In this document: positions 12,476 through 32,249 of the stretch, one piece after another
How the letters are laid out: each line of letters begins with the position of its first letter
Position numbering within the stretch: the stretch's first letter is position 1
Assembly: GCA_020629695.1 (NCBI GenBank)
Contig: JAHDCV010000012.1
Span: 14,271 to 61,423, forward strand
Reading direction: 5' to 3'
DNA: 47,153 bases
Source of the DNA: Acidimicrobiales bacterium
GTDB lineage: Bacteria > Actinomycetota > Acidimicrobiia > Acidimicrobiales > SZUA-35
Notes under the pieces: model-generated
What the model was told of the DNA's origin: nothing
The model's database searches: none
The model's input: the letters and a program-made list of their open reading frames with translations, nothing else
Program-made: the position numbers and the translations under genes

Positions 12476-12559
12476 CTCCTCCGGGTCGTTGCGTCACGCC
12501 GCTGACCTGGCCAAACTGTCTCTCCGGGTGCCATACCCGAGTCCAGGAGGACCGAAGTG

Positions 12560-13354
12560 ATGGATGATCCCTCGATCCCGGCGCAGCCTGCTGCCGCAGG
12601 GGCACGCATCATTGCCGTGGCCAATCAGAAGGGCGGCGTCGGGAAGACGACGACGACAGTGAATCTCGCTGCGGCGGCAGCGGAGCTCGGCCAGCGTGTT
12701 CTGATCGTGGACCTCGACCCACAGGGAAATGCGAGTACGGGTCTGGGGATCAACCCGCGGAGCCTGGAAGCGTCGATGTACGACGTCCTGCTGCACGATG
12801 TGCCGCTCGACGATGCGATCGAAGCCGCCGCGGTGAAGGGACTCTTCGTCGCACCAGCGAACCTCGACCTCGCAGGAGCGGAGATCGAGCTCGTCCCCGC
12901 CTTCAGCCGGGAGATGCGTCTTAAGAACGCCATCAACACGGTGATCGACGACTATGACCTCGTTCTCATCGACTGCCCGCCGTCGTTGGGACTCCTCACG
13001 GTGAATGCGTTGACCGCGGCGACTGAGGTTCTCGTGCCGATCCAATGCGAGTACTACGCACTCGAAGGCCTCGGACAGTTGCTCCGCAACATCGATCTGG
13101 TGAAGCGGAATCTGAACGAGTCGCTGGAGGTGGGAGCGATCGTCTTGGTCATGTTCGACGCCCGCACCAAGCTCGCAGGCCAGGTGGCCGCGGAGGTCCG
13201 CGAACACTTCGGCGACACCGTCTGTCGGACGGTGATTCCGCGAACCGTGCGATTGTCCGAGGCCCCGTCCTTCGGCCAGCCGATCACGGTCTTCGACCCT
13301 GTCTCCCGCGGCGCCATCGCCTACCGTGAGCTCGCACGGGAGGTGGTCGGATGA
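12560..13354 (+). CDS. parA: Chromosome partitioning ATPase ParA
   Basis: Deviant-Walker ATPase of 264 residues that moves ParB-parS complexes. The Walker A motif is KGGVGKTTTT (24-33), Walker A' is VDLDPQGNASTG, and Walker B is LVLIDCPPSLG. An AGGAGG ribosome-binding site (12545-12550) sits nine bases before the ATG at 12560. An in-frame GTG directly before it (12557) is less well spaced. The stop overlaps the parB start (ATGA). parS upstream and parB downstream make the function clear. Confidence 0.97.
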   Translation: MDDPSIPAQPAAAGARIIAVANQKGGVGKTTTTVNLAAAAAELGQRVLIVDLDPQGNASTGLGINPRSLEASMYDVLLHDVPLDDAIEAAAVKGLFVAPANLDLAGAEIELVPAFSREMRLKNAINTVIDDYDLVLIDCPPSLGLLTVNALTAATEVLVPIQCEYYALEGLGQLLRNIDLVKRNLNESLEVGAIVLVMFDARTKLAGQVAAEVREHFGDTVCRTVIPRTVRLSEAPSFGQPITVFDPVSRGAIAYRELAREVVG

Positions 13355-14280
13355 ACCGGAAGAGTGGACTCGGCCGAGGCCTCGGGTCGCTGATCCCCGC
13401 GGACATCAGCGGGCCGGGGGAGTCCTCGGGCGGAGGCGATGAGCTGAGGAACGTGCCCGTCTCGGCGATCGAACCGAATGAATACCAACCGCGGGCGCGG
13501 TTCGACGAAGAGGCGCTGGTCTCGCTGACCGATTCCGTCCGAGAGCTCGGCGTGTTGCAACCGATTCTCGTACGAGAGCGCGAGGACGGTGGCTATGAGC
13601 TGATCGCGGGGGAGCGCCGCTGGCGAGCCGCCAAGCGAGCCGGCCTGCCCGACATTCCCGCGGTCATTCGTCGGATCGACGATCAGACATCACTCGAACA
13701 CGCGGTCGTCGAGAACCTGCATCGCGAGGATCTCAACGCGCTGGAAGAAGCCGCGGCGTACCAGCAGCTCATCTCCGACTTCGGTCTGACACAGGATGAA
13801 GTGGCGACGCGTGTCGGGAAGTCACGGTCGGCGGTCACGAACACGTTGCGCTTGTTTCAGCTCCCGGGCTCGGTCCAGCGCCAGGTTGCAGGGGGAGAGC
13901 TCGGCGCCGGTCATGCGCGTGCCTTACTCGGTTGTCACGATCGCGCCGAGCTCCAACGCCTCGCGGATGTCATCGTCCGTGAAGGTTGGTCGGTCCGCGA
14001 GGTCGAACGGGCCGTGCGCGAGTTGTCCTCTGATCCCTCTGAGGTCGGTGAGGGCGCATCGGCGGACGCTCTCGAGCCGAGCCAGCACGACAGTGAGCAG
14101 TCGACTCCGCGCCCCGGTGCGGTCAAGCCGGCTGCGGTGCTCGAACTCGAGGAGCTGCTCGCCGATCACCTGGACACGCGAGTGCGGATCTCCGGCGGCG
14201 AAGGAAACGGCAGAGTTTCGATCGACTTCGCTGATCTCGCTGACCTCGAGCGGATCTATCGCCGCATGGTTCAGGGCTGA
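13351..14280 (+). CDS. parB: Chromosome partitioning protein ParB
   Basis: CTP-binding clamp protein of 309 residues that loads at parS. The N-terminus GLGRGLGSLIP is the ParA-stimulating region. The CTPase/ParB domain contains EYQPRARFDEEAL (44-56), LIAGERRWRAAKRAGLP (84-100) and ENLHREDLN (121-129). The helix-turn-helix lies at about 146-166 (LTQDEVATRVGKSRSAVTN). The C-terminal dimerisation region ends in DLADLERIYRRMV. Translation is coupled to parA by a four-base overlap. Confidence 0.97.
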   Translation: MNRKSGLGRGLGSLIPADISGPGESSGGGDELRNVPVSAIEPNEYQPRARFDEEALVSLTDSVRELGVLQPILVREREDGGYELIAGERRWRAAKRAGLPDIPAVIRRIDDQTSLEHAVVENLHREDLNALEEAAAYQQLISDFGLTQDEVATRVGKSRSAVTNTLRLFQLPGSVQRQVAGGELGAGHARALLGCHDRAELQRLADVIVREGWSVREVERAVRELSSDPSEVGEGASADALEPSQHDSEQSTPRPGAVKPAAVLELEELLADHLDTRVRISGGEGNGRVSIDFADLADLERIYRRMVQG

Positions 14281-14299
14281 TTCTGGGTTCTCCCCAAGT

Positions 14300-14308
14300 T
14301 TGTCCACA
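14300..14308 (+). promoter_or_regulatory. Isolated DnaA box downstream of parB
   Basis: Exact TTGTCCACA between the parB stop and the terminator, flanked by CCCCAAG and TTGGGG. It is about 6.8 kb from the candidate oriC. Its occupancy is unknown. Confidence 0.5.
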
Positions 14309-14320
14309 GGTTGGGGAAAG

Positions 14321-14384
14321 CCTCAAGCTCCACCAGAGGCTTGAGGTCGGACGCGAAAGCGCCCGGACCAGACGGTCCGGGCGC
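14321..14384. terminator. Bidirectional terminator between parB and trxA
   Basis: Two consecutive perfect hairpins. The first has 8-base arms, CCTCAAGC (14321-14328) with GCTTGAGG (14339-14346). The second has 11-base arms, GCGCCCGGACC (14359-14369) with GGTCCGGGCGC (14374-14384) and a four-base loop. They lie in the convergent gap after parB (plus) and trxA (minus). There is no clear U-tract, as is common in high-GC actinobacteria. Confidence 0.85.
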
Positions 14385-14424
14385 AGTCAGACGTTGCGGT
14401 TCGTACCGCGAGCCAGGGACTCGA

Positions 14425-14745
14425 TCAGACGCCGAGCTCTTCCAGGAGTTGCGCCTTGCCCTTGGCGCCGACGACTCGCTTGTCGACCTCGCCGTCTCGG
14501 AAGACGAGCATGGTGGGGATGGACATGACGCCATACCGCTGGGCGATGGACGGGTTCTCATCGACGTTCAGCTTGGCGATGACCGCGTCACCCGCCTTCT
14601 CGACGGCGATTTCGTCGAGGATGGGGGCGATCATCTTGCAGGGGCCACACCATTCGGCCCAGAAGTCGACGACGACCGGCTCGGATGAGCCGGCGACCAC
14701 CTCGTCGAAGGTGGCCTCGGTCAGGTTGACGATGGCATCAGACAC
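14425..14745 (-). CDS. trxA: Thioredoxin
   Basis: Thiol-disulfide oxidoreductase of 106 residues. The active site WCGPC (Cys33, Cys36) lies in FWAEWCGPCKMIAP, and the cis-proline loop is SIPTMLVF. The GTG at 14745 (VSDAIVNLTEATF) has a GGAG ribosome-binding site and gives the normal length. The frame reads open 60 codons further upstream, but that part is a basic low-complexity shadow overlapping trxB. It lies 74 bases after trxB on the same strand, so the reductase and its substrate are probably co-expressed. Confidence 0.96.
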   Translation of the reverse strand: MSDAIVNLTEATFDEVVAGSSEPVVVDFWAEWCGPCKMIAPILDEIAVEKAGDAVIAKLNVDENPSIAQRYGVMSIPTMLVFRDGEVDKRVVGAKGKAQLLEELGV

Positions 14746-14819: not shown

Positions 14820-15779
14820 CTATTCCTGGGCCTCGAGCCAGCGCTCGGCATCCAGAGCGGCGGCGCAGCCGGAGCCGGCGGCGGTGATGGCCTGCCGATA
14901 GACGTCGTCCTGGACGTCGCCGCATGCGAAGACCCCGGGAACAGATGTTCGACTGGTTCGGCCTTCGACCGCCAGATAGCCGTTGTCGTGCAGATCGAGT
15001 TGGCCGACGAAGAGGTCCGTGTTGGGGCGATGCCCGATGGCGATGAAGAGTCCGGTGAGGTCCATGGTCGAGGCCTCGCCCGTCACGGTGTCCTCGAGCG
15101 CCACCCCGGTCACACTCTGATCACCGAGGACCTCCGTGACCACCGCGTTCCAACGGAACTCGATCTTCGGGTTGGCCATCGCTCGGTCCTGCATGATCTG
15201 TGAGGCCCGGAGCTCGTCACGACGATGGATCACGGTCACCTTCGATGCGAACTTCGTCAGGAACATGGCCTCCTCCATGGCGGAGTCACCACCGCCGACC
15301 ATGCCGATGTGCTGGTCGCGGAAGAAGAAGCCATCGCAGGTCGCGCAGGTCGAGACGCCGTGTCCGATGAGACGGGTCTCATTCGGTACGTCGAGCATGA
15401 GGGCTTTGGCTCCGGTCGAGACGATCACACTCTCGGCGAGATGCGTCGGTTCCGGTGCGTCCGGGTCGCCCACCCAGATCTTGAACGGGCGCTCGGAGAA
15501 ATCGACCTTGCTCGCGCGCACGGTGTGCATCTCCGCGCCGAACCGCTCGGCCTGGGCTCGGAAGTTCATCATGAGCTCCGGACCCATGATCCCCTCGGGG
15601 AAGCCGGGGAAGTTCTCGACCTCGGTGGTGAGCATCAGCTGGCCGCCTGGCTGGTCGCCGGTGGAGGAGGGCTCACCTTCGAGGACCAGTGGCGAGAGGC
15701 TGGCTCGAGCCGTGTAGATGGCTGCGGTCAGCCCGGCCGGGCCGCTCCCGATGATGACGACGTCGTGGATGGTCGGCAT
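14820..15779 (-). CDS. trxB: Thioredoxin reductase
   Basis: FAD-dependent NADPH reductase of 319 residues that recycles thioredoxin. The FAD-binding motif is GSGPAG (11-16), the redox-active pair is CATC (Cys145, Cys148), and the NADPH-binding motif is GGGDSA (162-167). The C-terminal FAD-binding block is GVFACGDVQD. The ATG at 15779 is preceded by a GAGAGGAG purine-rich ribosome-binding site. The trxB-trxA pair next to parB is conserved in actinobacteria. Confidence 0.97.
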   Translation of the reverse strand: MPTIHDVVIIGSGPAGLTAAIYTARASLSPLVLEGEPSSTGDQPGGQLMLTTEVENFPGFPEGIMGPELMMNFRAQAERFGAEMHTVRASKVDFSERPFKIWVGDPDAPEPTHLAESVIVSTGAKALMLDVPNETRLIGHGVSTCATCDGFFFRDQHIGMVGGGDSAMEEAMFLTKFASKVTVIHRRDELRASQIMQDRAMANPKIEFRWNAVVTEVLGDQSVTGVALEDTVTGEASTMDLTGLFIAIGHRPNTDLFVGQLDLHDNGYLAVEGRTSRTSVPGVFACGDVQDDVYRQAITAAGSGCAAALDAERWLEAQE

Positions 15780-16237: not shown

Positions 16238-17218
16238 TCAGGTGGGGGAGCACTCCGGGAGGGTGAACACCATGGCCTCGAATCCGGTTCCGGCCTCGTC
16301 GTCGGCGAGCAGATGGATCTCGTGGTCGATCAGGCCATCCGGTGACGTTCCGGGCGCGACGTGGAGCGTGACGCGGTCTTCGATCAGTGCGCAGACGGGT
16401 GCGATCGGTTCGATTCCGTTCTCCCATCGCGCCACCATCTCCTCGAGGAGCAGTTCGGGGCGGTCGACGTCGACGAGCACTGGTATGTCGCTCTCGTCCT
16501 GCGGTGCCAGACCGGTATCCGCCTCTCCGGTGTCGTCCGACGCCGTTTCAGCCGCTTGATCGCCCTCGGTGTCGTCCATGGACTCTTCGTCCGCGGTGTC
16601 GGATTCCTCGACCGCCATCTCTTCCATGGCCTCTTCTTCCATGGCCTCCTCGGCGACGTCCATGGACTCTTCGGCCATGGACGCTGCATCTCCGGCGTCG
16701 TCCGCCGAGTCGGAGTCGAACGAGCGCGCTGCGTCGTCGGCCGCGTCCTCCATGCTCGCGGTGGCCAGATCGGCGGCGTCGTCATCGCCACCCGTGAGAG
16801 GAATCGCAACACCGACGAGCAGGACGACACCAGCGGCGGCTGCCGCGAGGGCGCCCAGCGGTCGGCGACGTCGGTCGGGTCGCGCCATCGCCACCACGTC
16901 GGGGACCGCCGCCGACGCTGTGCTGCTCGGAGCTGTGCCGCCCGAGAGCGGTCCCGCGCCGGCGCGGAGATCGATGTCCGCATCGCCGGCGCTGGAAGCC
17001 TGCAGGTCGTCGAACGCCGCCAGCGCCGCGCCCAGGTGACGTCGGCGGGTGAAGGGATCGGCGACGCCGAGATCCCCCCCGGTGGACACCTGTTCCGACA
17101 CCTCCCGGAACCGCTCGACTTCGGCGAGCATCGACGGGTCGGCCTCGACACGGGCGCGCTCGACCGCTGTGGCGTCACCGTCCAGGTAGGCGGAGATGAG
17201 TTCGTCGCGCTCGGTCAT
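16238..17218 (-). CDS. Putative transmembrane anti-sigma factor
   Basis: Membrane protein of 326 residues directly downstream of an ECF sigma factor gene, with a 16-base gap. The N-terminus MTERDELISAYLDGDATAVERARVEAD has the LSAYLDGE-like start of anti-sigma domains, but no HxxxCxxC zinc motif is present. One membrane segment lies at about 120-141 (ALAAAAAGVVLLVGVAIPL). The outer part is very acidic, with repeated Glu/Met blocks (DVAEEAMEEEAMEEMAVEES), and ends in a small folded domain with VCALIEDRVTLHVAPG. It probably holds the sigma factor at the membrane until a signal arrives. Function is inferred from position and topology. Confidence 0.78.
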   Translation of the reverse strand: MTERDELISAYLDGDATAVERARVEADPSMLAEVERFREVSEQVSTGGDLGVADPFTRRRHLGAALAAFDDLQASSAGDADIDLRAGAGPLSGGTAPSSTASAAVPDVVAMARPDRRRRPLGALAAAAAGVVLLVGVAIPLTGGDDDAADLATASMEDAADDAARSFDSDSADDAGDAASMAEESMDVAEEAMEEEAMEEMAVEESDTADEESMDDTEGDQAAETASDDTGEADTGLAPQDESDIPVLVDVDRPELLLEEMVARWENGIEPIAPVCALIEDRVTLHVAPGTSPDGLIDHEIHLLADDEAGTGFEAMVFTLPECSPT

Positions 17219-17234: not shown

Positions 17235-17717
17235 TCACGACGGGGGCTCCTGGTTCCCGAGTCGTTCCGCGAGCTGTCGCCGCGCCCGAGCGATTCGTGA
17301 TCTCACGGTGCCCGGGGCGAGCCCGAGTGTGTCCGCGATCTCTGCGTAATCGAGCCCTTCGAGATCACGGAGCACGAGCGGAGCTCGGAACTCCGGGGTC
17401 AGCGTCGCGAGCGCCGACATCACCTGATCCCGTTGGGCGACGTCGTCGCCGAGCTGATCATGTGATCCGGTCGGTCCCGCCGGCTCGATCTCGTCCTCGG
17501 TCGGCACCGGCCGCCGTCCGCGACGGCGGAGCTCGTCCAGACAGGCGTTGGTGGCGACTCGGTAGGCCCACGTGGAGAACGCCGAGCGTCCATCGAACCG
17601 ATCGAGCCCTCGCACGATCGCGAGCAGCGCCTCCTGCGTTGCGTCGTCGCCGTCGGCGACGTTGCCGGCGATCCGACGGCAGCGGGCCGAGATCCGGTCG
17701 TAGTGCCGCTCGAGCAA
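17235..17717 (-). CDS. ECF-family RNA polymerase sigma factor (SigM-like position)
   Basis: Sigma-70 family protein with region 2 (DDATQEALLAIVRGLDRFDGRSAFSTWAYRVATNACLDELRRR) and region 4 (LPPEFRAPL-type TLTPEFRAPLVLRDLEGLDY, then the helix-turn-helix AEIADTLGLAPGTVRSRIARAR). The only in-frame start is TTG at 17717, giving 160 residues. Codons upstream of it still read as a typical ECF N-terminus (DLELVQRAQAGDRGALDQ), but the open frame back to a stop near 17890 contains no ATG, GTG or TTG. The true start may be at the ATG at 17794 in another frame, with a one-base slip or sequence error between. Neighbours (kinase, anti-sigma, trxB) match the SigM locus of mycobacteria. Confidence 0.88.
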   Translation of the reverse strand: MLERHYDRISARCRRIAGNVADGDDATQEALLAIVRGLDRFDGRSAFSTWAYRVATNACLDELRRRGRRPVPTEDEIEPAGPTGSHDQLGDDVAQRDQVMSALATLTPEFRAPLVLRDLEGLDYAEIADTLGLAPGTVRSRIARARRQLAERLGNQEPPS

Positions 17718-17844: not shown

Positions 17845-19425
17845 TCAACGCAGGCGGACGTCGACGATCTCCAACCGGAGCGCCCCGTCGGTCATCGACC
17901 GGCCCTGCTCGGTGATCCACAGCACGACTTCGTCACCGACCGGTTCGGACGGCAGTTCGATCACCGCTGAACCGGACGCACCGTCGACGCCTCCGACCGG
18001 CGCCGCCCAGCCCTGTGGGATGTCGCCGAGATCAGTACCGACGTAGACCTCGATCGTCCAACCCTCGGTGAGGGTGTCGATCTCGACGGCCCGGACGGCG
18101 GCCGGCCCCTCGAGGTCCAGTCGAAGCCCCACGCCGTCCTTCAGACCGCCGAGCGCCGGCCGGCGATAGGTCTCCGTCGGCCAGGCCGTGGATGGGTCGC
18201 CGTCGAACGCGGCGGGTGCCCGCTCGTTCTGCTCGACGTCGTCGCCACCCGGATCCAGCGGTGTGGCCGACGCGATGACGGGGTCGACCAGTTCGATGAT
18301 GGGGGACAGCACCGTCGTCGGACCGGCGTCCGGTTCCGTGTTCACCGTGGTGTCGATGTCGTCGTCGCCCCGTCCCCCGACGGTGAAGAGCAACGATGCG
18401 ACCACGATCGCGACACCGACCAGGACGACCGCGAGCATGGATCCGAACCAGCTTCGCATCTTCGTGACGGGGATCTCGCCGATGTCGTGCTCGTCGAGTT
18501 CGATGTCGGGATCGAACGGCGCCGGTTCGGGTGTCCTGTCCGGCGAGATGAACACGGTCGCGTCCCGGCTTCCCGGGTCGAGATCGATGTCCACACCACT
18601 CAACTGGGCGTGGAGGTCGGCCGCGGTCGACGGGCGCGCACTGGGTTGGCGCCCGAGACAGCGATCGATGACGAGTTCGAGATCGATCGGGGCATCGGGT
18701 CGATGGCGCCGCAGGAGCGGTGCGGCCTGGTGCAGACGGGCCAGCGCGGTCGCGGCGTCGCTCTCGGCCCGGAAGGGCACGTGCCCCGTGGCGCACTCGA
18801 AGAGCACGACGCCGAGCGAATAGATGTCCGACCTGGGATCGATCGTGCCGCCCTCGACCTGCTCAGGCGAGAGGTACTTGGCGGTTCCGAGCAGTGTCCC
18901 GGTGACGGTGAGATCGGTGTCCTCGCTGGCCTTGGCGATTCCGAAGTCGGTGACGACGACCCGCTTGTCCGCACAGAGCAGGATGTTCGACGGCTTGATG
19001 TCGCGGTGGATCACGCCGCCGCGGTGCGCCTCGTGCAGCGCGTCGGCGACCTGCCGTCCGACCTCGAGCGTCATGGGGTCGTCGAGTTGCCCGAGGTCGT
19101 CGAGTGCTTCGCGGAGCGTCCGGCCGACGAGCAGTTCCATGACGATGGCCTCGAGTCCGCCATCACTGACGGTGTCGAAGATCGACACGATCGAAGGATG
19201 TGAGAGTCGGGCCGCCGCGACGGCCTCCCGCTGGAAGCGTGCGAGGAAACCCCGGTCGCCGGCCAGGTGTGGGTGGAGGACCTTGATCGCGACGGATCGC
19301 TCGAGCACCGGGTCGTGGCCGTGCCACACCTGAGCCATGCCACCGGTCGCGATGAGCGAGCGGAGCTCGTATCGGTCTCCGATGATGCGACCGGGCCGGA
19401 CGCCCGACTCCGACGGGTCGATCAC
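17845..19425 (-). CDS. Membrane Ser/Thr protein kinase with discoidin-like outer domain
   Basis: Receptor-type kinase of 526 residues, GTG start, overlapping the DUF6049 gene stop by four bases. The kinase domain (about 19-280) is complete: glycine loop IATGGMAQVW, Lys48 in VAIKVL, Glu67, HRDIKPSN (140-147), DFG (160-162) and SPEQ in place of APE. A juxtamembrane acidic linker leads to one membrane segment (329-349). The outer part (about 385-526) resembles the discoidin/F5-8C-like domain attached to mycobacterial MviN: FDGDPSTAWPTETY, LRLDLEGPAAVRAVEI and a GWTIEVYVG strand. No PASTA repeats are present. No MurJ/MviN flippase part is present, although this is the locus where mycobacteria encode it. 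Confidence 0.9.
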   Translation of the reverse strand: MIDPSESGVRPGRIIGDRYELRSLIATGGMAQVWHGHDPVLERSVAIKVLHPHLAGDRGFLARFQREAVAAARLSHPSIVSIFDTVSDGGLEAIVMELLVGRTLREALDDLGQLDDPMTLEVGRQVADALHEAHRGGVIHRDIKPSNILLCADKRVVVTDFGIAKASEDTDLTVTGTLLGTAKYLSPEQVEGGTIDPRSDIYSLGVVLFECATGHVPFRAESDAATALARLHQAAPLLRRHRPDAPIDLELVIDRCLGRQPSARPSTAADLHAQLSGVDIDLDPGSRDATVFISPDRTPEPAPFDPDIELDEHDIGEIPVTKMRSWFGSMLAVVLVGVAIVVASLLFTVGGRGDDDIDTTVNTEPDAGPTTVLSPIIELVDPVIASATPLDPGGDDVEQNERAPAAFDGDPSTAWPTETYRRPALGGLKDGVGLRLDLEGPAAVRAVEIDTLTEGWTIEVYVGTDLGDIPQGWAAPVGGVDGASGSAVIELPSEPVGDEVVLWITEQGRSMTDGALRLEIVDVRLR

Positions 19426-21392
19426 TCCACCACGGTACTTCGCTCACCCGCACCGGTCGCGGGCGACGCGGTCTCGTCGTCGACGGCGGCGTCACGCGAC
19501 CGCGTGGCGGCATCGGAGTGGCGGGTGTCGGGCTCGCCCGAGCCGGCGCCATCCACTTCCTGCGATCGTCGGCCCTTGCCGATCGACACGATCCACCAAC
19601 CGAGGAGGAACGCGAGCGCGGTGCCCGTGAGCAGCAGCCCGAGTCCGGGAACCGCCGTCGAGCGGATCCGGATGGTCGTTCGTGCCAGTTCGTGCCGTCC
19701 GTCGGGGGTCAGCACGATCACCTCGAGAGGTGTCAGGCCCAGGCTGCGGGTGACGACCTCGACATCGGTGGTGGTGGCCCCGGGGGGCAACTCGAGGACG
19801 ACGTCGTCCGGGGTGATCAGCTTGTCCGACTCGAACCGCAGGCGAACCCGGCGGGTGCCCGATGCGGTCGACTCGAATCGGATCGGGAGCGGGTGCCGCT
19901 CGGTCGCGAGCGTGACCGAACCCTGGTCCGGGAGTGTGACGAACGCGAGCGCCTCGTCGACCGACTGTGCGACCCGGTCGAGCGCCCTGGCCCGGTCGTC
20001 CTGGTTCCGGTCCGTCGTCACGGCCCCGGTCAGCTCGCTGCGGAGCCGGCCCGGTTGCGGATCACCGGTCACGTGGACCTCTCGGTAGCTCTCCAGGTCC
20101 GCCAGTGTCTCGGTCAGTGTCTCGGCCAGTGGCCGCAGGTCCTGGCTGGGTCGCTCCGCGGGAAGCACGGGGATGGCCCCGACGTCCCCGGCGATCTCGA
20201 GCAACGAGACCGGACCGACCGGTCCGGGGGAACTCAACGCGTCGAGCACCGTGTCGAGCGGGCCGGCGGCCACACGGCCATCGGCTGAGCCCGCACCGAG
20301 GATGATGGGGGACCGGTCGACCTGCGCGCGGAGGGTCAGCCGGGCCAGCAGCTCATGGACCCGCCCGACCTGATCGGGGTGCACGCGCAGGGCGCGGGAG
20401 TCATCGGGATCCGGGCGCACGCTCACGACCCGCGGATCCCGACGCAGGGTTCCCGACGACGAGCCGGTCGAGGTGTTGTCGATCACGACGAGTTCGCGGT
20501 CGCCGGCGAGCAGTTCGAGTCCGGCCTCGGTGAGTCGGAGATCGTTGACGACGAGTTCGTCGCTCAGGGGAAGTCCCAGGGCGTCGAACCGGGCTCGATC
20601 CGCGGCCGTCGCGTCGTGCCAGAGCTCACCGAGGTCGGTTTCGGCGAGCGCCGATGGGTCCAGTCGGATCACCCGCTCCGCCGTCACCGGGCGACCGGCG
20701 AGCGCCGACCGGAGTCGTCCGACGAGGTCGGGGGAGTTCTCGAGCTGGGTCAGGACGCCGCGTTCGAGGACCACGGTGACCGGGATGGACGGGTGCTCGG
20801 TCAGCAGCTCGATGGCGTCGTTGATCGTGAGATCGTCGGCCGCCGCCACCGGCATGAGGATCGCCACGGGAAGCGGATCGATCTCGGCGGTCTCGCTGGG
20901 GAGCCGGATCAGGTGGGTGTCGAGGCTCGCGACCCGGCCATCGGGGCCGTTGAGTGCCAGTTCGACCGGGTAGACGCCGTCGGTCGGGACGAAGATCCGC
21001 TCGGCGTCGCCGTTGGGTGCCGATCGGATCGGCAGCGAGACGACGAGATTGCCCACCTCGTCGCGGGGGAGTTCGGCGAGGGGAAAGCTCCGACGATTCA
21101 ACACGTCGATCGGTGTCGACCCCATGTCGTCCTCGGCTTCGAGCACGCCGAACAGCGTGAGGTCCAAGCGCTCCGCCGAGACGTCGGCCGGCCAGCGGAC
21201 CACGAGTTCGAACGTGCCGTCAGCGGGTACGAACGCGGTCTGGTCGACCACCGCGAAGGGCGGAGGGGTGAGCTGTCGCACCGGTCGCACGACGCTCGGT
21301 GCGCCACCGGCCGGAGCCGGCCCGACGAGCGCGGAGAGGAGCGCCGCGCCGACCAGCAGCGCTCTGGCGATCGAACGTCGTCGTGACCTCAC
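19422..21392 (-). CDS. DUF6049 secreted/membrane-anchored envelope protein
   Basis: Protein of 656 residues from the GTG at 21392, which overlaps the GNAT stop (GTGA). It has a signal peptide (RRRSIARALLVGAALLSALV) with a cut site near GPAPAGGAPS, a long extracellular region, one membrane segment near the end (about 587-607, VPGLGLLLTGTALAFLLGWW) and a charged cytoplasmic tail. The outer region has Ig-like strands at the start and before the membrane segment (RRVRLRFESDKLITPDDVVLELPPG). Position, topology and size match the actinobacterial family typified by Rv3909, located next to MviN and SigM; its function is unknown. A longer reading up to 23195 is a shadow of the deacetylase gene. Confidence 0.85.
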   Translation of the reverse strand: MRSRRRSIARALLVGAALLSALVGPAPAGGAPSVVRPVRQLTPPPFAVVDQTAFVPADGTFELVVRWPADVSAERLDLTLFGVLEAEDDMGSTPIDVLNRRSFPLAELPRDEVGNLVVSLPIRSAPNGDAERIFVPTDGVYPVELALNGPDGRVASLDTHLIRLPSETAEIDPLPVAILMPVAAADDLTINDAIELLTEHPSIPVTVVLERGVLTQLENSPDLVGRLRSALAGRPVTAERVIRLDPSALAETDLGELWHDATAADRARFDALGLPLSDELVVNDLRLTEAGLELLAGDRELVVIDNTSTGSSSGTLRRDPRVVSVRPDPDDSRALRVHPDQVGRVHELLARLTLRAQVDRSPIILGAGSADGRVAAGPLDTVLDALSSPGPVGPVSLLEIAGDVGAIPVLPAERPSQDLRPLAETLTETLADLESYREVHVTGDPQPGRLRSELTGAVTTDRNQDDRARALDRVAQSVDEALAFVTLPDQGSVTLATERHPLPIRFESTASGTRRVRLRFESDKLITPDDVVLELPPGATTTDVEVVTRSLGLTPLEVIVLTPDGRHELARTTIRIRSTAVPGLGLLLTGTALAFLLGWWIVSIGKGRRSQEVDGAGSGEPDTRHSDAATRSRDAAVDDETASPATGAGERSTVVE

Positions 21393-22129
21393 GCGAGACT
21401 GCGTTCGAGCACGAGCAGGCCGCGGGGCTCGTCGACGAACCCCATCGCCCGGTACAGGTCGAGCGCTCGTTGATTCCGCTCCTGGGTGTTGACCATGACG
21501 TCGCTCGCACCGGCGTCGCGCAACCAGCGCAGTGCGTCGGCGACCAGGCTCGAGCCGAGCCCCCGACCCTGTGCGTCGGGATCCACCGCGAGTCGCTGGA
21601 GGTAGCCCCGGGCGCCGGCTCGGCCGGTCACGGCGTACCCCGTGACGCCACCGTCGCCGGTGAGCCGGAACCGGTGATGCGGTGTCGCCCGGCACGCTTC
21701 GTCGAGGGAGGCCCGGTCGAATCGCCAGAACCCGTCGAAGGCGGCACCGTCCACGACCAGGGCCGCGTCGCGGTCGCGTCGGCGTCCGGCACGTGTGGGA
21801 GCGGTCGGTTCGGGGAGCGTGTCGTGCAGCGTCCGCCGCAGCAGATGGAGTTCTTCCCGTGCGGTGAAGCCCGCGGCGAGGAACGCCCGGGCGTCGGTGA
21901 GGTGCAGCGCCGGGGTCACGACCTGCTCGACGCCGGCGCGTGTCAGGCGGTCGACGCATCGGTTGATCGTGTGGGGATCGAGTCGTTTCGCGCCGCGGGC
22001 CGGTCCGACGAGCGCGACCGTTGCCTCGCCGTGCCACGGATGGACACGGAGCTGTCGTGTGCCGGACCGCAGCCGCTTGGGACGACGCGTGTCCACACCT
22101 GAGGAGAGGGCGAAGGGCGTGTCCACCAT
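21389..22129 (-). CDS. GNAT-family N-acetyltransferase
   Basis: Protein of 246 residues starting at the ATG MVDTPFALSSGVD. The C-terminal half is a GNAT domain with motif A LQRLAVDPDAQGRGLGSSLV (acetyl-CoA pyrophosphate loop QGRGLG) and the closing strand RALDLYRAMGFVDEPRG. The N-terminal ~100 residues (LDPHTINRCVDRLTRAGVEQV, then DARAFLAAGF) look like a partial second GNAT fold, as in two-domain enzymes. The substrate is unknown. It heads the minus-strand run through DUF6049, kinase and sigma factor, and is divergent from the deacetylase gene with only 64 bases between them. Confidence 0.88.
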   Translation of the reverse strand: MVDTPFALSSGVDTRRPKRLRSGTRQLRVHPWHGEATVALVGPARGAKRLDPHTINRCVDRLTRAGVEQVVTPALHLTDARAFLAAGFTAREELHLLRRTLHDTLPEPTAPTRAGRRRDRDAALVVDGAAFDGFWRFDRASLDEACRATPHHRFRLTGDGGVTGYAVTGRAGARGYLQRLAVDPDAQGRGLGSSLVADALRWLRDAGASDVMVNTQERNQRALDLYRAMGFVDEPRGLLVLERSLA

Positions 22130-22193
22130 CGGCGAGGATACGCAGCGTCGCGCAGCACGTGTGGTTGGGGCCGGGGCAACTACCGTTGCGGGC

Positions 22194-23228
22194 ATGTCGA
22201 GTTCCCGGGTCGTGGTCGTCACCCACGCCGACTGCGTGGCCCACGATCCCGGTGTCCACCACCCCGAACGGCCGGCCCGTCTCGGTGCCGCCATGCGGGG
22301 ACTCGGAGACTTGGACCTCGGCACCGATCTCGTCGTCGAGGATGCGCCGCTCGTCGCGCTCGACGACGTGGTGCGGGTCCATCCCGCCCAGCTGCTGCGA
22401 GATCTCGAGCTGCTGTGTGAACGAGGTGGCGGTTCGATCGATCCCGACACCACGGTGTCGCCCGAGTCCTATGCGGCCGCTCGACGTGCTGCGGGTGCCG
22501 GACTCGCCGCCGTCGACGCGTTGCGGGGCGAGCGGGCTGATGTCGCGTGGGCGATGGTCCGACCACCGGGTCATCACGCGACGGTCCGGACCCAGATGGG
22601 ATTCTGCCTCATCAACAACGTGGCGGTGACCGCCCGGTCGTTGACCGCAGCCGGTGACCGGGTCGCGATCGTCGACATCGACGCACATCACGGCAACGGC
22701 ACCGAGGACGTGTTCTGGCGCGACCCCGACGTGCTCTACGTCAGCCTGCATCAGTCGCCGTGGTACCCCTACACGGGCGACGCGACCGACATCGGCGCCG
22801 ATGCGGGGGTCGGGGCGACGGTGAACCTGCCGATGCCGGCGGGCGCGGCCGGCCGGGCCTATCGGCAGAGTCTCGATGAGGTCGTGCTGCCCGCGCTCGA
22901 GGCGCATCGGCCAGACTGGTTGCTGATCTCCGCTGGTTTCGACGGGCACCGTGCCGATCCCCTCACGGATCTCGGCCTCACGGCGGCCGACTACGCCGAC
23001 ATGGTCACCAGGCTGCGGTCGGTCGTCGGTGAACGCCGGACCGTGCTGTTCTTGGAGGGGGGCTATGACCTCGACGCACTCCGGGCGTCGACGGCGGCGG
23101 TCACGGCTGCGCTCGTCGGTCACGGGCATCGTCCCGAGCGGGCCACCGATGGCGAGGGTGCCGACGAGGTGGTCGATCAGGTCCGGACCGCGCATCGGGG
23201 TGCCGGCTCCGGTCTCGACCGCTCGTGA
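22194..23228 (+). CDS. Histone-deacetylase-family amidohydrolase
   Basis: Zinc amidohydrolase of 344 residues, ATG MSSSRVVVVTHADC. Family motifs are in order: HHPERPARL near the N-terminus, AMVRPPGHHA (catalytic His pair), GFCLINNVAV, VDIDAHHGNGTEDVF (zinc-binding Asp and His), SLHQSPWYPYTG, LISAGFDGHRADPL (zinc-binding Asp) and LEGGYDLDAL. Bacterial members remove acetyl groups from acetylpolyamines, acetyl-CoA synthetase lysines or other N-acetyl compounds. The substrate cannot be told from sequence. The divergent GNAT gene raises the possibility of an acetylation/deacetylation pair. Its stop overlaps the pcnA start (GTGA). Confidence 0.93.
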   Translation: MSSSRVVVVTHADCVAHDPGVHHPERPARLGAAMRGLGDLDLGTDLVVEDAPLVALDDVVRVHPAQLLRDLELLCERGGGSIDPDTTVSPESYAAARRAAGAGLAAVDALRGERADVAWAMVRPPGHHATVRTQMGFCLINNVAVTARSLTAAGDRVAIVDIDAHHGNGTEDVFWRDPDVLYVSLHQSPWYPYTGDATDIGADAGVGATVNLPMPAGAAGRAYRQSLDEVVLPALEAHRPDWLLISAGFDGHRADPLTDLGLTAADYADMVTRLRSVVGERRTVLFLEGGYDLDALRASTAAVTAALVGHGHRPERATDGEGADEVVDQVRTAHRGAGSGLDRS

Positions 23229-31565: not shown

Positions 31566-32249
31566 ATGGACGAGACCGACGAACTGATCCAGGCGGCGAC
31601 CGCCGTGCTCGTGCGCGATGGTGCGGACGACGTCGAGGTGCTGATGCTCCGTCGGAACTCGAAGGTCGCCTTCGGTGGTATGTGGGTGTTTCCAGGCGGT
31701 CGCGTCGACTCCGACGACGGGGATGGCGAGAGCGACGCCGTCGAGGTGGGTCGCCACACCGCTGCGCGGGAGATCGCCGAGGAGACCGGACTGACCGTCG
31801 CTCCCCATGCGTTGGAGTCCTGGTCGCATTGGGAGCCGCCGCTCACGAAGGAGATGGCGATGGCCGGCAAGCGTCGGCGGTATTCGACGTGGTTCTACGT
31901 GGGCGCCGCGCCGGACGTCGAGGTCGCCGTCGACGGCGGTGAGATCCTCGAGCACCAGTGGTGGTCGGCGGCCGAGGCGCTCCGCCGGTTCGCTGCACGG
32001 GAGATCGAGATCGTCCCGCCAACGTGGATCACGTTGCACGAGCTGGCGGGGTATCCGTCGGTGGCCGAGGCTCTGGCCGCCGCCGCCGTTCGAACGCCTC
32101 CGATGTTCCACACCAAGCCCGTCCCGGGCGATCCGGTCACGCTCGTCTGGGACGGCGATGTCGCCTACGAGTCCGGTGACCTCGGCGCCGATGGTCCTCG
32201 CAACCGCCTCGCCATGCACCGAGATGGATGGGTCTACGACAAGCGTTGA
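31566..32249 (+). CDS. Nudix hydrolase (NUDT7/19-like)
   Basis: Protein of 227 residues with the Nudix box ending REIAEETGL (68-76). GG at 44-45 opens the box, and about ten extra residues lie between it and the REUXEE part, an insertion typical of the NUDT7/NUDT19 CoA- or acyl-CoA-diphosphatase branch. The N-terminus AATAVLVRDGADDVEVLMLRR and the lead GGMWVFPGGRV fit that branch. It would hydrolyse a nucleoside diphosphate linked to another group; the substrate is unknown. This is not the usual short MutT form. Confidence 0.87.
   Translation: MDETDELIQAATAVLVRDGADDVEVLMLRRNSKVAFGGMWVFPGGRVDSDDGDGESDAVEVGRHTAAREIAEETGLTVAPHALESWSHWEPPLTKEMAMAGKRRRYSTWFYVGAAPDVEVAVDGGEILEHQWWSAAEALRRFAAREIEIVPPTWITLHELAGYPSVAEALAAAAVRTPPMFHTKPVPGDPVTLVWDGDVAYESGDLGADGPRNRLAMHRDGWVYDKR

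Follow-up and report, generated by a model that had tools for sequence, protein, structure and literature searches.

A catalytically intact kinase–CBM32 receptor in the MviN slot of Acidimicrobiales, a likely live counterpart of the regulatory half of MviN

MviN is an essential protein of mycobacteria. In Mycobacterium it (Rv3910) joins MurJ, the ActPs3 pseudokinase and an outer carbohydrate-binding domain in a single chain (PDB 3OUN, 3OTV, 3UQC). The pseudokinase binds neither ATP nor Mg; its tail is phosphorylated by PknB, which is followed by docking of FhaA and a restraint on peptidoglycan synthesis (PMC12599244, PMC10166564, PMC6180346). The open literature that we searched leaves the origin of this dead-kinase half of MviN unexplained.

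Here we analysed a stretch of 47,153 nucleotides, hereafter the window, from a member of Acidimicrobiales (GenBank assembly GCA_020629695.1, contig JAHDCV010000012.1, positions 14,271 to 61,423). It carries a receptor kinase gene that resembles mviN in its location in the DUF6049–sigM slot near trxB and parAB and in the succession of a kinase fold, a membrane helix and a CBM32-like domain, but its product lacks the N-terminal MurJ part (Table 1). We consider it likely that this gene corresponds to the regulatory half of MviN in a live, unfused form, i.e., that at an early stage an active receptor kinase was encoded next to murJ, decayed and was fused to it later. The argument leans mainly on gene order and the outer domain, while the kinase tree alone does not prove descent.

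Table 1. Features of the kinase gene and its conserved neighbours (window positions)
Feature	Position	Strand	Basis or remark
Receptor kinase gene (kinase, membrane helix, CBM32-like outer domain)	17845..19425	-	526 aa, GTG start
Kinase domain, residues 19-269, catalytic residues intact	18619..19371	-	Pfam PF00069, E 1.6e-40
Membrane helix, about residues 330-350	18376..18438	-	hydropathy
Outer CBM32/discoidin-like domain, about residues 378-526	17848..18294	-	AlphaFold model, fold search, profile A1; Pfam weak
DUF6049-type secreted/membrane protein, upstream of kinase (start not fixed)	19422..21410	-	relatives' orthologues match PF19516
SigM-like ECF sigma factor, downstream of kinase (true start probably further upstream, up to about 17820)	17235..17717	-	
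Anti-sigma-like protein, zf-HC2 at start (RsmA position)	16238..17218	-	E 9.8e-5
GNAT acetyltransferase gene (start approximate), conserved neighbour	21389..22000	-	
Thioredoxin reductase trxB, conserved neighbour	14820..15779	-	synteny
parA-parB, conserved neighbours	12557..14280	+	

The kinase frame has exactly the coordinates given in the first-pass annotation, which named no strand, and reads on the minus strand. Its GTG start codon overlaps the stop of the upstream DUF6049-type gene by 4 nt. All Hanks-type residues expected of a PF00069 kinase are in place: K48, E67 (the alphaC Glu), H140-R141-D142, N147 and D160-F161-G162. The first-pass annotation had reported a full catalytic set, and Lys48, HRD 140-142 and DFG 160-162 are each found where it put them. 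Its description of the product as a kinase-membrane-discoidin module without the flippase is borne out by the domain order and by a Pfam profile search of the protein, which returned no match to a MurJ domain. The most hydrophobic 20-residue stretch, according to hydropathy, comprises residues 330-349. Unlike the MviN motifs VALT / LSIDHPSR / Y-- (PMC12599244, their Table 1), the AIK, HRD and DFG motifs of the window kinase are not degenerate, and its activation loop, DLTVTGTLLGTAKYLSPEQ, is PknB-like and Thr-rich. Judging by these residues, the domain can probably transfer phosphate.

The solved structures closest to this kinase domain are those of PknB (5u94, E 1.6e-57), and the PASTA-PknB kinases have PknB-like catalytic and activation loops in common with it. 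However, they carry PASTA repeats on the outside, whereas the window protein has a CBM32-like domain there; its match to the NCBIfam model NF033483 (PknB_PASTA) scores 340 bits, below the cut-off of 450, and covers the kinase part only. The likeness to PknB, together with the occurrence of kinase-CBM32 receptors at other loci in about a dozen families, would suit an ordinary PknB-type kinase that has acquired a CBM32 domain, sits in the slot by coincidence and is unrelated to MviN. We regard this as highly improbable, since the outer domains of the window protein and of MviN are homologous (see below) and many families keep the same gene order.

The AlphaFold model of the outer domain (pLDDT 85.5, with eight relatives as the input alignment) matched CBM32 and other galactose-binding-like modules in Foldseek (E 3.9e-6). 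Its best structural matches belong to CBM32, with 7d2a superimposing at Z 14.5 over 121 residues at 2.4 A, and it has the D-G-D-x-x-T-x-W loop motif seen in CBM32, F5/8 type C and CBM_AftD domains. Sequence models respond more weakly: the Pfam F5/8 type C model (PF00754) gave E 0.056 and 14.0 bits, below its cut-off of 28.2, CBM_AftD gave E 1.7e-4, under its cut-off, and the outer domain used by itself as query found no match among PDB sequences. Among 18 outer domains of relatives, CBM_AftD was matched in nine and F5/8 type C in eight at E up to 1. The term "discoidin-like" used at first pass is thus right as to the predicted fold. Unlike such a domain in a secreted enzyme, the window copy is a part of a receptor kinase. 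The CBM32-like domain probably binds a wall glycan.

A profile built from outer domains of the window's order only (A1) matches MurJ-fused proteins with E values from 1.9e-23 to about 1e-10. One of the proteins matched, L244, is a true MviN, as it aligns to the solved Rv3910 pseudokinase (PDB 3OUN) with E 2.5e-127. The predicted model of the outer domain of another MurJ-fused protein, L199, also matches CBM32 (Z 15.6). The outer domain is homologous to that of MviN, and an unrelated outer domain, which would have spoken against the kinship supposed at first pass, is not what was found.

The genes around the kinase follow the order rsmG, parA, parB, thioredoxin, trxB, small membrane protein, anti-sigma-like, SigM-like ECF, kinase, DUF6049-type, GNAT, pcnA, a layout which we take to be that of the mycobacterial sigM region. 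The kinase had been placed between the DUF6049 protein and SigM, and these are indeed its upstream and downstream neighbours. The window DUF6049-type protein itself has no match to Pfam PF19516; counterparts in the same place in relatives match this model (E 5.8e-9, 4.8e-6 and 7.2e-24), and counterparts in the same family align to the window protein with about 180-900 bits. The sigma factor matches the NCBIfam SigM model with E 1.4e-34, below the cut-off of that model. Promoter and terminator scans returned nothing above chance.

The genome has a single clear murJ, on another contig (C60:66045-67196, E 8e-60), in agreement with the expectation that MurJ is encoded elsewhere. A MurJ-family match on contig C2 was rejected as a second flippase, being partial, weak (E 6.3e-9) and similar to a MATE transporter. 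Five kinases exceed the Pfam cut-off in this genome, and the PASTA kinase shares its contig with FhaA (FhaA_N). No cwlM gene is present between parB and the thioredoxin gene (14280-14425), where mycobacteria presumably have it. A histone-deacetylase-family-like frame lies between the GNAT gene and pcnA (21795-23228, + strand), at the place presumably taken in mycobacteria by a MutT-type gene; a NUDIX-like frame is located at 31566-32249.

Of 41 genomes of the order, 35 (counting that of the window) contain the outer domain; in the 20 regions that were read it makes up the end of a kinase gene at this location. The slot in relatives reads DUF6049 - (murJ) - (degV) - kinase - sigM - trxB, as it does in many other families. 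Six families of the order have a separate murJ between the DUF6049-type gene and an intact kinase (L041, L042, L043, L044, L046, L050), in most of them followed by a degV-family gene. In one further family (L047) the kinase is devoid of Lys, HRD and DFG, so that a single order exhibits an intact kinase with murJ, an intact kinase without murJ and a dead kinase without murJ. MurJ-family matches exceeding the cut-off, one or more per genome, are present in all 27 genomes of the order and class that were checked. In most families of the order (e.g., L040, L045, L047-L049, L051) a DegV-family gene in the slot separates the kinase from the DUF6049-type gene (or from murJ); the window's family has none there.

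The assignment of the window gene to the MurJ/MviN position stands insofar as gene order in relatives identifies the same chromosomal slot. The view of a flippase-free slot as ancestral does not: a separate murJ is retained beside an intact kinase in six further families of the order and in several outgroup families, and for this reason the absence of murJ from the window-type slot is best read as a later loss.

We surveyed 396 Actinomycetota genomes, complemented by targeted searches, with the outer-domain profile made from the window's order alone as query. The outer domain is present in 205 of the 396, so the module is not rare; a narrow-alignment search of genome contigs gave seven named loci. 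Sixty regions were read and sorted into classes by profile search and catalytic residues, the family labels of the sampled genomes resting partly on group codes and sequence matches. L105 and L108, which adjoin sigM, are counted as slot proteins in the motif comparison, the AU tests and the family counts, and as non-slot proteins in the group tables of both trees and in the profile scores.

The regions form a series. Outside the order, an intact kinase adjoins a separate murJ in L106, L111, L114, L117, L118 and L129. Partly decayed kinases beside murJ have kept Lys and the DFG Asp and lost the HRD Asp (L107, L120, L124); the kinase of L133 has kept the DFG Asp and lost Lys. Dead, unfused kinases beside murJ are found in L126, L134, L135-L138, L140, L241-L243 and L247. 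Some of those from L126 to L140 belong to genomes of streptomycete size, and L241, L242, L243 and L247 come from four genomes of the mycobacterial family, where murJ and the gene for the dead kinase lie side by side without being fused. The series ends with MurJ-pseudokinase-CBM32 fusions (L142, L244, L248, L249). In the Mycobacterium-type family one long frame occurs in about 52 of 59 outer-domain-positive genomes, as judged by frame length, and the motifs of L142 read ALT / LSIDHPDR / FPG, similar to those of ActPs3 (PMC12599244). In Intrasporangium calvum (L197) the dead kinase is unfused and the slot lacks murJ. A MurJ-pseudokinase-CBM32 fusion is also present in a genome of Propionibacteriaceae, outside mycolata (L199:6917-10456, a frame of 1180 residues). 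This has a bearing on whether the fusion is confined to bacteria with arabinogalactan, as has been claimed. In the open papers searched we found no description of such a live-to-dead, split-to-fused series.

In a tree of 96 kinase domains, built from kinase columns only, the slot kinases of Acidimicrobiales come out as a single group (SH-aLRT 96), and this genome's own PASTA kinase (L157) falls among PASTA kinases. The pseudokinases have long branches and cluster together, away from all intact kinases; L047 is drawn to them in spite of its outer domain and gene order, which place it inside the order. Because long-branched pseudokinases pull together and L047 is misplaced, the deep placements in this tree are not trusted, and we relied on AU tests and the outer-domain tree instead. 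A constraint uniting MviN pseudokinases with PASTA kinases was rejected (p 0.0115; p 0.0028 when ten typical PASTA kinases were used), and one uniting every slot kinase, live or dead, was not (p 0.377, with long branches). The union of MviN with the window-type (Acidimicrobiales) kinases alone was rejected (p 0.018). Grouping window-type kinases with PASTA kinases was weakly rejected (p 0.041), which also counts, to a small extent, against a chance occupant of PknB type; these being several tests on quick trees, weak p values should not be leaned on. A grouping with PASTA-PknB kinases, which would have spoken against the first-pass view, is not what was found. The MviN pseudokinase is not the exclusive sister of the window kinase; the two would both lie within a broader slot family.

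Profile scores and a short motif are consistent with such a family. Streptomycete-type dead domains score highest on slot-kinase profiles in six cases out of six, MviN-type domains in 12 out of 13 (with a margin over the PASTA profile of a few bits), and control kinases prefer other profiles. A juxtamembrane motif SF-x-R-S/T-E-x-R/S-W-L is present in 15 slot proteins from several families, two of them decayed, and in none of 20 non-slot proteins.

The outer-domain tree has no columns in common with the kinase and is unrooted. The intact or decayed state requires at least eight changes among slot proteins on it, although counts on an unrooted tree give no direction by themselves. Well-supported separate losses are those of L120 beside intact L144 (100/94), L107 beside L106/L111 (97/88) and L047 inside the order (95/90), and catalysis was apparently lost several times. 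Decay is the favoured direction, because partly decayed forms retain active-site remnants and repeated restoration of all motifs seems unlikely.

The opposite order of events would have a dead kinase ancestral in the slot, with Acidimicrobiales and other lineages swapping in an active kinase by recombination and keeping the outer domain. Such swaps do happen, since intact kinases at other loci in the mycobacterial family (L245, L246) bear CBM32 outer domains of this type, and the clustering of pseudokinases in the unrooted kinase tree would fit as well. We nevertheless consider a dead ancestor improbable: it needs several separate restorations in distant families, does not account for the active-site remnants of partly decayed forms, and has to be reconciled with intact slot kinases in 15 families of the order and six families outside it and with the juxtamembrane motif, which is confined to the slot and common to intact and decayed forms. 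The passage from intact through partly decayed and dead to fused forms makes the active slot kinase probably the ancestral state, as the first-pass annotation had suggested for this active form of the regulatory half.

If decay was indeed the direction, an active receptor kinase would have stood beside murJ early in the phylum, and its catalysis would have decayed on several occasions. The phosphorylation is now done by PknB in mycobacteria, where the dead kinase gene would have been fused to murJ. In the window's family murJ would have left the slot and the kinase stayed intact, and the receptor of this lineage may phosphorylate by itself. A wall glycan or precursor on the CBM32-like domain could shift both the dimer state and the phosphorylation of the activation loop, with ligand-driven dimerisation and autophosphorylation on the Thr-rich loop as the presumed events. 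The kinase would act on nearby envelope proteins, candidates being MurJ, FhaA complexes or FhaA-bound partners, and the SigM/anti-sigma pair; the sequence does not decide among these targets. The functional link to MurJ rests on relatives, because murJ is not adjacent in this genome.

It is possible, though doubtful, that the output of this intact orthologous kinase is the SigM/anti-sigma stress branch and not MurJ, the link to murJ being only positional in some relatives. sigM adjoins the kinase in nearly all slots, whereas many families, the window's among them, have no murJ there. On the other side, the dead homologue in mycobacteria acts via FhaA on peptidoglycan synthesis (PMC10166564, PMC12599244), and murJ adjacency recurs in distant lineages. 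We speculate, and no more firmly, that the MviN pseudokinase comes from an active glycan-sensing receptor kinase which controlled its neighbour, the lipid II flippase MurJ, in trans. This circuit would still work in Acidimicrobiales without PknB, the kinase sensing the state of the wall via its CBM32 domain and itself phosphorylating the flippase machinery, and repeated loss of catalysis would have turned the receptor into a PknB-dependent scaffold prior to the fusion with MurJ.

As to the origin of MviN, the survey points to a wider and older module, intact and half-decayed forms of which still stand beside murJ. These living "before" states open the questions of the ligand of the outer domain, the substrates of the intact kinases and the match of their sites to those of PknB in mycobacteria. 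They also provide a well-sampled bacterial case of a receptor kinase repeatedly turned into a probable scaffold.

Two deep types are seen in the MurJ tree, and the window's MurJ is of the type located in the slot of f59, f66 and G037. The MurJ genes of L003, L044, L106 and L117 stand on one side and those of L041-L043, L118, L135 and L142 on the other, and the two types take the same slot in different lineages. Slot murJ genes seem to have been exchanged between lineages, and simple vertical descent of murJ is not claimed.

Intact kinase-CBM32 receptors away from the sigM slot include L104, L109, L113, L119, L121, L125, L128 and L131 (families f61, f69, f72 and f90), often with a second kinase gene nearby on the opposite strand. 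In the mycobacterial family, off-slot kinases with a CBM32 outer domain are encoded by L245:2519-4792 (genome G378) and L246:1667-3394 (G455). L245 has intact motifs and an outer domain inside the MviN outer-domain clade, which suggests that an active kinase received this domain from MviN by a swap.
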